Assembly: GCF_000270245.1 (NCBI RefSeq)
Contig: NC_015635.1
Coordinates: 4,774,001 to 4,838,000, forward strand
DNA: 64,000 nt
Source of the DNA: Microlunatus phosphovorus NM-1
GTDB lineage: Bacteria; Actinomycetota; Actinomycetes; Propionibacteriales; Propionibacteriaceae
Direction of reading: 5' to 3'
Below the pieces are notes generated by a model. It ran no database searches. It worked only from the letters and a program-made list of their open reading frames with translations, and was not told where the DNA came from. The stretch's first letter is position 1, and each line of letters opens with the position of its first letter. This document shows positions 21,089-23,302 of the stretch, in pieces. Position numbers and translations under genes: made by a program.

Positions 21089-22375
21089 TTACGTGAAGTA
21101 GCGCAGGGCCACGTACACCCAGGCCATGAAGGTGCTGAGCAGGGTCACGACGATGCCCTTCCGGGTGAACTCCCAGAACGTGATGGCATGACCGGCGCGT
21201 CCGGCGATGCCGATGCCGACCACGTTCGCGCTGGCCGCCACCGCCGTGCCGTTGCCGCCGAAGTCGGCGCCGAGGGCGAACGCCCACCACAACGCCCCAC
21301 CGGCGGCCGGATCGGTGCCCTGGGAGACCAGATCCTCCACGATCGGGGCCATGGTGGCCGCATAGGGGATGTTGTCGAAGAACGCACCCAGAATGGCCGA
21401 GCCGAACAGCAGCGCGGTGGCGGCGGCGAAGTAGTCATGGCCGACGATGCCGACCGCCCAGTCCCCGATGGCCTTGATCACCCCGGTGTGGACCAGACCG
21501 CCGACCATCACGAACAGACCGGCGAAGAACACCAGGGTCGGCCACTCGACCTCGGGCACGATGTCGTAGATGTCGCTCCGGGTCACCAGAACCATCACCA
21601 GCGCGCCCACCAGGGCGACGATCGACGGTTCCAGGTGCAGGACCGTGTGCAGCACGAAACCGAGGATCACGAACGCCAGCACGACCAGGCACTTGACCAG
21701 CAGCTTCGGGTCGGTGATCGCCCGCTTCTCCTGCAGCGCCATCACCGCGCTGGCATACCGCGGGTTGTACTGGAAGTCCTTCCGGAACAAGAACCTGGCG
21801 AAGAGCACGAACACCACGAAGACGACCATCACGATCGGCGCCATGTGGATCAGGAAGTCGTTGAAGCTGAGCCCGGCCCGACTGGCGATGATGATGTTGG
21901 GCGGATCGCCGATCAAGGTCGAGGCACCGCCGATGTTGGAGGCGAGGATCTCGGCGATGATGTACGGCTGCGCGCGAATGTGCAGCCGGTCGCAGACCAC
22001 GATCGTGACCGGTACGACCAGCATGATGATCGTGACGTTGTCCAGGATCGGCGAGGCGATGGCCGTGATCAGCATCAGCATGACCATCAGTCGATAGGGC
22101 TTCCCCTGCGACTTCTTGGCCGCCCAGATGCCCAAGTACTCGAACAGACCGGTCTGCTTGATCACCCCGACGATGATCATCATGCCGAGCAGCAGGAAGA
22201 TGACGTTCCAGTCGATCCCCTCGTGCTCGGAGAAGAACACCTCTGAGCCGGGCACGATGCCGGTGACGACCATCAAGGCGGCCGCGATCAGCACGACCTT
22301 CACCTTGTCGACGCGCTCGGTGGCGATGAACACGAACGCGACGATGAAGATTGCCAGCGCCAGTGCGGCCTGCAT
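21089..22375 (-). CDS. ArsB/NhaD-family ion transporter
   Basis: 428 residues, about 11-12 membrane helices. The sequence DWNVIFLLLGMMIIVGVIKQTGLFEYL, the helical hairpin NIGGASTLIGDPPNIIIASRAGLSF and the second repeat GALWWAFALGADFGGNGTAVAASANVVG are characteristic of the ion transporter superfamily group with ArsB, NhaD and the P/Pink-eyed-dilution proteins. Substrate could be Na+/H+, arsenite or an organic anion; the sequence does not decide. It is followed by kinase and regulator genes and preceded by a 167 bp near-palindrome and a CBS gene. Confidence 0.85.
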   Translation of the reverse strand: MQAALALAIFIVAFVFIATERVDKVKVVLIAAALMVVTGIVPGSEVFFSEHEGIDWNVIFLLLGMMIIVGVIKQTGLFEYLGIWAAKKSQGKPYRLMVMLMLITAIASPILDNVTIIMLVVPVTIVVCDRLHIRAQPYIIAEILASNIGGASTLIGDPPNIIIASRAGLSFNDFLIHMAPIVMVVFVVFVLFARFLFRKDFQYNPRYASAVMALQEKRAITDPKLLVKCLVVLAFVILGFVLHTVLHLEPSIVALVGALVMVLVTRSDIYDIVPEVEWPTLVFFAGLFVMVGGLVHTGVIKAIGDWAVGIVGHDYFAAATALLFGSAILGAFFDNIPYAATMAPIVEDLVSQGTDPAAGGALWWAFALGADFGGNGTAVAASANVVGIGIAGRAGHAITFWEFTRKGIVVTLLSTFMAWVYVALRYFT

Positions 22376-22389
22376 CAGCGCCCCCGGCC

Positions 22390-22556
22390 TAGGAGGGTCG
22401 TGTTGAACGGCGGCCGTAGCGAGCAGGCGCCCGAGCGCGTGCCGGACAAGGCGTCGGAGGAGTCGGATAGCGGGGTTCTATCCGCGACGACGACAACGCA
22501 GTCCGGTGCGTGCTCGGGTGCCGCGCAGTAGGTCGTCGTTTGACACGACCCTCCTA
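22390..22556 (+). ncRNA. 167 bp near-perfect palindrome, candidate structured RNA or MITE
   Basis: Outer stem: 22390-22415 against 22531-22556, 26 pairs, of which the terminal 14 (TAGGAGGGTCGTGT / ACACGACCCTCCTA) are exact. Second stem: 22426-22447 against 22501-22522, 22 pairs. Apical stem: CGGATAG / CTATCCG around a CGGGGTT loop. In the two long stems every non-Watson-Crick position (about eight) is G-T on the plus strand, none a true mismatch. That bias suggests selection for pairing as a plus-strand RNA or single strand. It sits 14 bases upstream of the minus-strand transporter start. No open reading frame occupies it. Confidence 0.6.
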
Positions 22557-22637
22557 CTGGTTGCAGCTCGGATGCGAACCGGGTTGGCGCGTCAGATCTG
22601 GATTCGATCCCGAGGCCGATCCTGGGACCGCGTACGG

Positions 22638-23096
22638 TCAGCCAGTCGTGTCGGGCAGATCGAGATGGATCAGCAGCGCACTGAGCGTGATGCAGCCGGA
22701 CAGCCGGCCGTCCGGCGCTACGACGGCCACCAGTGGGCTGTGCATCCGGGCCATCACGCCGGCCACCTCGAGCAGCGTCGCGTCGGCTTGGACGGCGACC
22801 TTCTTCGAGGGCTGCGGCGGCAGACAGTCGCTGACCGTACGGTGCTCCAACTCCTGCCAGAAGAGGTCGGCATGGGCCTCGTCGATGGTCCTGGCCAGCG
22901 CAGGATCGCGCTGGTAGGTCTGCGCCACGATCATCCGCAACACCTGGCTGCCGGGCAGCACAGCTCGTGGATGGGACGCCCGATCGACCACGATCAGACC
23001 CGGCAGTTGCCGATCTGCCATGATCTTGACCGCCCTGGTGACAGGATCGTCCAGGGTGACCGTCGGAACCTCGACCGCGATGTCGCTCGCCTGCAT
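22638..23096 (-). CDS. CBS-domain pair protein
   Basis: 152 residues. Two CBS units: ASDIAVEVPTVTLDDPVTRAVKIMADRQLPGLIVVDRASHPRAVLPGSQVLRM and RTVSDCLPPQPSKKVAVQADATLLEVAGVMARMHSPLVAVVAPDGRLSGCITLSALLIHL. CBS pairs bind adenosine nucleotides and often gate transporters. Location upstream of the ArsB/NhaD-like gene on the same strand makes it a candidate regulator of that transporter, as an inference from context. The ATG at 23096 starts the first CBS strand. Confidence 0.85.
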   Translation of the reverse strand: MQASDIAVEVPTVTLDDPVTRAVKIMADRQLPGLIVVDRASHPRAVLPGSQVLRMIVAQTYQRDPALARTIDEAHADLFWQELEHRTVSDCLPPQPSKKVAVQADATLLEVAGVMARMHSPLVAVVAPDGRLSGCITLSALLIHLDLPDTTG

Positions 23097-23302
23097 GCCA
23101 CCTATCCTCCGCGCATAGGCCAACCGGTGCCCAGGATACGTTGCGCGCCGGGCCGCCGCCGCGGACGCGAGAGCTTGCCACGATAGCCACCTCCGCCTCG
23201 ACGCTCGTCACGGATTCGGCGTGCTCACCGATCCATTCAGCAGTCTCACCGCAGCGACCGGCTCGAGACCATCCGTGCTAGACCCCACTTCTGCGTCGTA
23301 CA

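Follow-up and report, generated by a model that had tools for sequence, protein, structure and literature searches.

Bacterial miniature inverted-repeat transposable elements (MITEs) are usually viewed as decayed transposon ends. Parts of three reports already describe palindromic members whose transcripts fold (PMC2229807, PMC10969869, PMC5896051). ERIC/IRU and NEMIS/Correia are presented in sections of two sources as non-autonomous elements of about 100–200 bp with many intergenic copies and predicted long-stem transcripts, and several of these and other palindromic MITEs have 5′-TA-3′ termini (PMC2229807, PMC2649163); QMITE1 and QMITE2 of Coxiella burnetii are MITEs present at about 50 per strain, some of which, according to part of the report, yield small RNAs (PMC5896051). 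The element described here resembles these. It occupies positions 22389–22557 of a 64,000-nucleotide stretch (the window) of Microlunatus phosphovorus NM-1 DNA (contig NC_015635.1, positions 4,774,001–4,838,000), as delimited by genome matches, folding, and the covariance models R1 and R2 described below; it comprises a 167 bp palindrome with its target duplication, and its hairpin-forming strand is the plus strand, which folds far better than the minus strand as RNA and somewhat better as DNA. We infer a strand-specific structure, most likely an RNA, that serves the element's own spread, and the explanation that we judge to be somewhat probable is a MITE moved in trans by DDE transposases of the IS4/5 type (IS, insertion sequence), with a conserved, strand-specific structure read as RNA.

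Comparison with the published descriptions reveals several differences. In the sections concerned, ERIC and NEMIS are described from single genera or groups of genera, whereas the present element has a phylum-wide core, differing ends, measured covariation, and a strand bias; the string 'covari' does not occur in the text of the QMITE1 and QMITE2 report (PMC5896051), and QMITE2 is given 7–9 bp direct repeats in part of a review of prokaryotic MITEs (PMC10969869), the main text of which contains neither 'actino' nor 'streptomyces'. REP and REPIN sequences with RAYT genes, partially described as palindromes of 20–40 bp, do not fit the element in size or target duplication, RAYT genes themselves not having been searched for. 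A passage of a further source mentions short abundant transcripts at palindromes, none being listed there (PMC4681348). Our literature searches, which included a text search for two core motifs, found no description of this element family, nor did we find in print a core conserved across a phylum that combines covariation with exchangeable ends.

Strand-specific wobble pairing and covariation

The two long stems of the palindrome (22390–22415 with 22531–22556, and 22426–22447 with 22501–22522) contain 48 pairs, the outermost 14 of which are exact; eight of the 48 are not Watson-Crick pairs, and every one of these is G-T on the plus strand (22404-22542, 22405-22541, 22410-22536, 22413-22533, 22429-22519, 22437-22511, 22440-22508, and 22441-22507). 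Direct counting agrees with the initial annotation in all of these respects, although its statement that the mismatches are exclusively G-T applies to both long stems and fails in the stretches left out of them, between the stems and towards the apex, where other mismatches are present; a symmetric count over 55 outer and middle pairs gives eight G-T, one A-C, and three others. Folding of positions 22380–22566 as RNA yields −128.4 kcal/mol (z −10.46) for the plus strand and −98.9 kcal/mol (z −5.94) for the minus strand, and none of 200 shuffles reached the energy of either strand.

Relatives of the element show the same asymmetry. For 107 copies, with the apical motif as the guide to orientation, we tallied all pairs except those of the apex, scoring G-T and A-C alike; a contig-edge fragment (L159) and partial or short copies (L009, L010, L012, L013, L015, L017, L037, L038, L041, L044, L045, L048, and L051) were left out. 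Among 5877 pairs there are 735 G-T, 81 A-C, and 431 other mismatches, and G-T exceeds A-C on the same strand in every one of the 107 copies; reduction to 43 non-redundant sequences (greedy clustering at a score ratio of 0.80) leaves 286 G-T, 38 A-C, and 166 others in 2340 pairs, with the same direction in all 43. The 107 copies derive from BLAST (23) and from a covariance model (84) that may favor paired copies; we note that the 23 BLAST-found copies all point the same way by themselves (180 G-T, 31 A-C), as do 35 of 36 copies from one genome, G142, that were picked by terminal repeats alone (158 and 29), and 18 of 19 further copies from G192, taken from a pattern search or the R1 list (117 and 14). 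The same strand is also the more stable one in all 23 long copies and in every one of another set of 28 sequences, four of which are common to both. The initial annotation took the wobble asymmetry as the mark of a structure on one strand, a reading that these counts and the strong covariation described below sustain. It had also looked to random mismatches in homologous copies as a sign of a plain MITE; A-C and other mismatches do exist, yet they are a minority relative to G-T.

In the middle stem, where G-T accounts for 17% of the pairs (599 of 3558), G-T outnumbers A-C by 599:49; the ratio for the terminal zone is 136:32. Mismatches between two purines in the middle stem likewise lie on this strand, with 307 A-G and G-G against 17 C-T and C-C, so that C-to-T mutation alone is not a sufficient explanation.

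Compensatory changes were assessed in the structured core (22411–22535, plus strand), which is defined by covariation, by searches of the class and phylum, and by its match to the core model R2 (G000:C1:4796411-4796535, E 7.3e-18). Alignment A2 contains 37 of the 43 non-redundant cores, L308 having been dropped as truncated, L008, L034, and L313 for their inserts, and L035 and L160 for a deviant apex. Double changes occur in 31 of 33 pairs, 93.0% of cells pair as compared with 69.2% in shuffles, and covariation is 0.658 as compared with 0.229 in shuffles and 0.080 to 0.179 in slid versions. None of 500 shuffles reached any of five covariation measures, and the compensatory changes expected of a structured RNA are thus present beyond the level of controls that ignore the tree.

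The apical module, which includes tandem G-A mismatches, is conserved in this alignment. Its 5′ strand (CAAGGCG...GGAGGAG; 22447–22463, A2 columns 41–53) and 3′ strand (CGACGACGACAACGCA; 22485–22500, columns 88–101) enclose an apical stem-loop (22464–22484), the stem of which is variable and covarying according to the fold, the alignment, and the covariation; all three are on the plus strand. Two of the G-C pairs in the module (columns 47-95 and 50-92) are flipped to C-G in 9 and 10 of the 37 cores respectively, the two pairs being flanked on either side by G-A dinucleotides in 26 and 29 cores, and GGC (columns 44–46) and AACG (columns 96–99) are near-invariant.

These patterns bear on the proposal that this is a plain MITE, whose arms covary through shared transposase ends or arm-to-arm conversion and whose G-T excess reflects a mutational strand bias. 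Terminal repeats of IS type do covary through the symmetry that they need; however, covariation is strong in the core, from which R2 excludes the outermost 22 bases of either arm, and the G-T excess is larger in the middle stem than in the terminal zone. Conversion would moreover erase the G-T and G-A mismatches, yet both are kept. We regard a plain MITE as quite improbable.

Copies, terminal repeats, and mobility

A 187-base query gave 17 match rows in the M. phosphovorus NM-1 genome, among which are the element, its self-inverted match, and partial copies; eight of the copies come close to full length (79–100% identity). A further search gave 16 rows there, again counting partial copies and the self-inverted match. 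BLAST matches are present in eight of 20 genomes of the genus; the first covariance model, R1, built from 20 copies, raises this to ten of the 20 and, when extended to the family, matches 51 of 197 genomes, its copy numbers being lower bounds because 14 candidates were scored per genome. The core model R2, built from 37 non-redundant sequences, gives 15 matches in M. phosphovorus NM-1 at E≤0.01, 12 of them below 1e-9. The covariance-model search of actinobacterial genomes that the initial annotation had proposed did find homologues, 102 of the 394 class genomes and 41 of the 396 in a phylum sample having a match to the R2 core (the inner ~120 bases); the two samples share genomes, and nine candidates per genome were scored in each. 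Matches beyond the class are weaker, most of those listed having E values of 1e-12 to 1e-4. Twenty of the 26 phylum-search loci (L367–L392) are long enough for comparison, and by eye all 20 contain the apical AAGGCG or a near variant; the strand shown is that of the more stable fold in 18, the exceptions being L377 and L381, which are shown on the opposite strand (tied orientation score).

Presence in Streptomyces is confirmed by name. A Streptomyces relative matches 40 plasmid records, 15 of them with at least 80% coverage, and has no match among phages; the window element itself has no plasmid match at E≤0.001. A single viral contig (L360, IMGVR_UViG_3300010280_000050) has the exact apical pattern. 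None of 4227 Rfam families had a match overlapping the element at E≤1 in 23 loci; the sole Rfam hit listed is a cobalamin riboswitch in the flank of a relative (L341:338-407).

Element length is 159–171 bp in 102 of the 107 copies. Three copies, L008, L034, and L313, are 195, 189, and 233 bases long, with extra bases near the apex, and the remaining stem folds in L008 and L034; short forms of ~49–87 bases (L013, L044, and L015) keep the terminal repeats and have lost the apical module, part of the middle stem still being present in L013 and L044.

The left terminal inverted repeat of the window copy (GAGGGTCGTGTTGAACGG; 22393–22410, with an approximate inner limit) is of a type that varies between lineages, and the right repeat (22536–22553) is, by sequence and pair count, its complement containing G-T pairs. 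The same core type is elsewhere flanked by ends such as GAGGGTGGTGTC, TGGTCTGTCGC, GAGGGTGCGCGGATAG, GGGTGTGTCTCCC, and GGTCTTTCGTTTGGATC; the terminal repeats vary while the core persists and the total length hardly changes. One genome, G019 (L043, L056), contains similar cores with three types of terminal repeat, each self-complementary, and in L007 a second half terminal repeat lies back-to-back to the left of the element (GCCACCCTCC before AGGAGGGTGG).

On the evidence of its sequence and that of its relatives the palindrome is a MITE: it is multicopy, it has CTAG at its end, and a relative has both empty and occupied CTAG sites; it is also short, bounded by terminal inverted repeats, and non-coding according to the listing of open reading frames. 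The left copy of the inferred 4-bp target duplication is CTAG (22389–22392), and the right copy is probably CTAC, with one change (22554–22557); another copy in the same genome (L006) has CTAG at both ends. A relative on a Streptomyces anthocyanicus plasmid lies between an amino acid racemase gene and a LysR gene, and two S. coelicoflavus plasmids are without the insert; in the alignment (L361 with L394 and L395) the empty site reads CTAG, and the insert is bordered by CTAG...CTGG. A second occupied and empty pair, at a fabG site, is less clean, in that the right side agrees and the left spacer also differs. The initial annotation had posed RNA and MITE as alternatives, an opposition that falls away, since the element is both structured and, from its copies and the CTAG duplication in the relative, a MITE.

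The best view of mobility is offered by G142, in which 51 loci were read and 42 full copies aligned and used. The 3-bp flanks are identical in 25 of the 42, 24 of them being TNA, and a pattern search found the terminal repeats 82 times forward and 92 times in reverse, with 0 and 1 occurrences of the reversed pattern. A 961-bp element (G142:C137:603-1563) has the same 17-base ends as these relatives and an open frame of 294 amino acids with a DDE_Tnp_1 domain (PF01609, 56.5 bits, cut-off 23; PF13586, 29.5, cut-off 29.2; PF13340, 33.8, just below its cut-off of 34.3). The end-repeat pairs and the enclosed DDE element mark the G142 relatives as MITEs belonging to a transposase of IS4/5 type, and ends shared with an autonomous element are thereby found for one type of terminal repeat; we take the window element to be a MITE of the same kind. 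IS4/5-family (IS5-like) elements resemble the palindrome through the terminal repeats common to its relatives and the DDE element in G142, and differ in having a transposase gene, of which the palindrome has none; CTAG and TNA targets fit subgroups of IS5.

The search for a resident partner in M. phosphovorus NM-1 covered 23 places with PF01609 and one with PF13340. The end motif, with up to four mismatches allowed, was looked for in nine representative loci, where only four-mismatch matches occurred and none was accepted as an end; a search for inverted repeats flanking the gene in six loci likewise turned up no partner. In five loci with one terminal repeat each (L258, L261, L255, L256, and L264) no second IS transposase was recognised by eye, no family search having been made.

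Transcription, replication, and selection

Gene orientation around the 107 copies was determined with a simple gene finder based on codon composition. The genes upstream and downstream are oriented +− in 24 copies, −+ in 23, −− in 21, and ++ in 21; 17 others have no predicted gene on at least one side, and one lies inside a predicted gene. The initial annotation saw no special tie to the adjacent genes, which the near-equal classes bear out; its suggestion of an antisense role on the leader of the adjacent transporter gene finds no support, copies standing in all four orientations to their neighbors. The same data speak to a cis-acting mRNA hairpin that tunes neighboring genes as an RNase III site, terminator, or stability element, a role put forward for NEMIS among other MITEs, effects of long-stem MITE transcripts on neighbors being described in part of PMC2229807. 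Such a role would suit the 106 of 107 copies outside predicted genes and the 26 that overlap a gene 3′ end by three bases, as a stop codon within CTAG would give; it sits poorly with the lack of orientation preference, though the favored structure is on one strand only, and with three annotated neighborhoods of relatives that differ from one another. We consider it very unlikely.

The main rival to RNA is folded single-stranded DNA of one strand, used, for instance, while the element transposes or at the replication fork. This too would fit the covariation and the excess of G-T over A-C, and with DNA parameters the plus strand of positions 22389–22557 is the better hairpin (−60.8 versus −49.1). 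GC skew, sampled in 20 stretches of M. phosphovorus NM-1, stays positive up to ~2.6 Mb and has turned negative by 2.84 Mb; with boundaries set by hand between samples and the G-rich strand taken as leading, the hairpin strand is the leading-strand template in 14 of 15 copies, and in G325 it is so in 12 of the 14 listed (17 found). A single replication orientation in these two genomes favors single-stranded DNA; in G011, however, the bias is not significant (38 of the 66 copies listed out of 76 found; p 0.27), and it is only weak when flanks are pooled (n=142, p 0.04; n=130, p 0.11 without M. phosphovorus NM-1), these p-values being optimistic because the orientation was noticed before it was tested. 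The test covered M. phosphovorus NM-1, G325, and G011; G009, G330, G370, and G578 have matches and were left out. With the hairpin strand on the leading template, it is the weaker-folding strand that forms the lagging template, the reverse of lagging-template hairpin use, and the bias could reflect survival of the orientation in which a DNA palindrome is least harmful. G-T pairs at 17% of the middle stem would be a heavy burden for a DNA hairpin but a light one for an RNA hairpin. For these two reasons, the cost of G-T and the replication orientation where it is seen, we favor RNA, and we hold single-stranded DNA to be unlikely, though a serious contender.

According to the explanation that we prefer, a MITE with a structured RNA, IS4/5-type DDE transposases would recognise the terminal repeats and insert the element at CTAG- or TNA-like targets, and a plus-strand transcript would arise when a copy is transcribed from outside. 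This transcript would form an irregular hairpin of ~70 pairs with the tandem G-A module on top, to which, we guess, a protein binds, and the hairpin RNA and bound protein may help the element lineage to persist or be mobilised. The G-U pairs would leave the RNA stable while weakening the DNA palindrome, and so reduce loss of the insert at replication; selection would act mainly on spreading lineages rather than on each resident copy.

Several observations weigh against this explanation. Because there is no orientation preference relative to genes, transcription by the host would yield the hairpin strand from only about one copy in two, and visual inspection of the variable 5′ arm, without a promoter scan, revealed no promoter motif. 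No partner IS was found for the terminal-repeat type of the window, the IS link being shown for one type; two of the 55 copies added from G142 and G192 have more A-C than G-T; and the covariation controls ignore the tree, with the structure derived from the same alignment. Changes within nine families (42, 23, 26, 7, 6, 9, 8, 4, and 5 copies) show only a mild excess of pair-keeping: transition events in Watson-Crick pairs are kept:broken 60:45 when private (p 0.17) and 47:28 when shared (p 0.037), and the private versus shared contrast is not significant across the nine families (Fisher p 0.54). That selection acts on spreading lineages only is not established.

Counted as cells, private single changes comprise 44 kept, 24 broken, and 52 pair-breaking transversions, and shared ones 155, 66, and 89. 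In G142 alone private changes looked neutral and shared ones pair-keeping, which we dropped as proof because of the nine-family result. The many pair-breaking changes in resident copies would suit a plain MITE, as would the two copies with excess A-C, whereas the 60:45 split of private transitions lacks the strong strand bias that a mutational origin of the G-T excess calls for. Weak selection within families implies that resident copies decay and that the structure is visible mainly over long times, and selection may fall on those lineages that keep moving.

The omega RNAs of TnpB and IscB are transposon-borne guide RNAs. The bridge RNA or seekRNA of IS110/IS1111, as described in parts of two reports, is likewise a conserved structured RNA that travels with a mobile element (PMC11187229, PMC11208160); the mover here differs in being a DDE transposase, and no guide role is known for the putative RNA. 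A bolder and rather doubtful idea is that the palindromes represent a phylum-wide class of transposon-borne structured RNA on which DDE (IS5-type) elements depend or through which they are exploited, swapping terminal repeats to ride different IS while the fold and G-A module are kept for a conserved protein needed in mobilisation. Across relatives in the Actinomycetota the fold of one strand has been kept while sequence and terminal repeats turned over. If it is an RNA, it is a widespread structured one with no Rfam match in the scanned loci and no known function, and it should be easy to test because it is present in Streptomyces. A general question also becomes testable, namely whether selection maintains RNA functions that belong to non-autonomous elements themselves.

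Gene context of the window copy

The element lies between two genes on the minus strand, both outside it. A CitMHS/ArsB-like transporter gene (21089–22375; PF03600, 314.5 bits; PF02040, 60.3 bits) has its predicted start 13 bp from the element, which lies upstream of it, and the plus strand of the element is antisense to the leader of this gene. On the other side is a gene for a CBS-domain protein (22638–23123; PF00571, 39.8 bits), and a CBS-domain gene also adjoins the element in L362, on a Streptomyces angustmyceticus plasmid, perhaps by chance.
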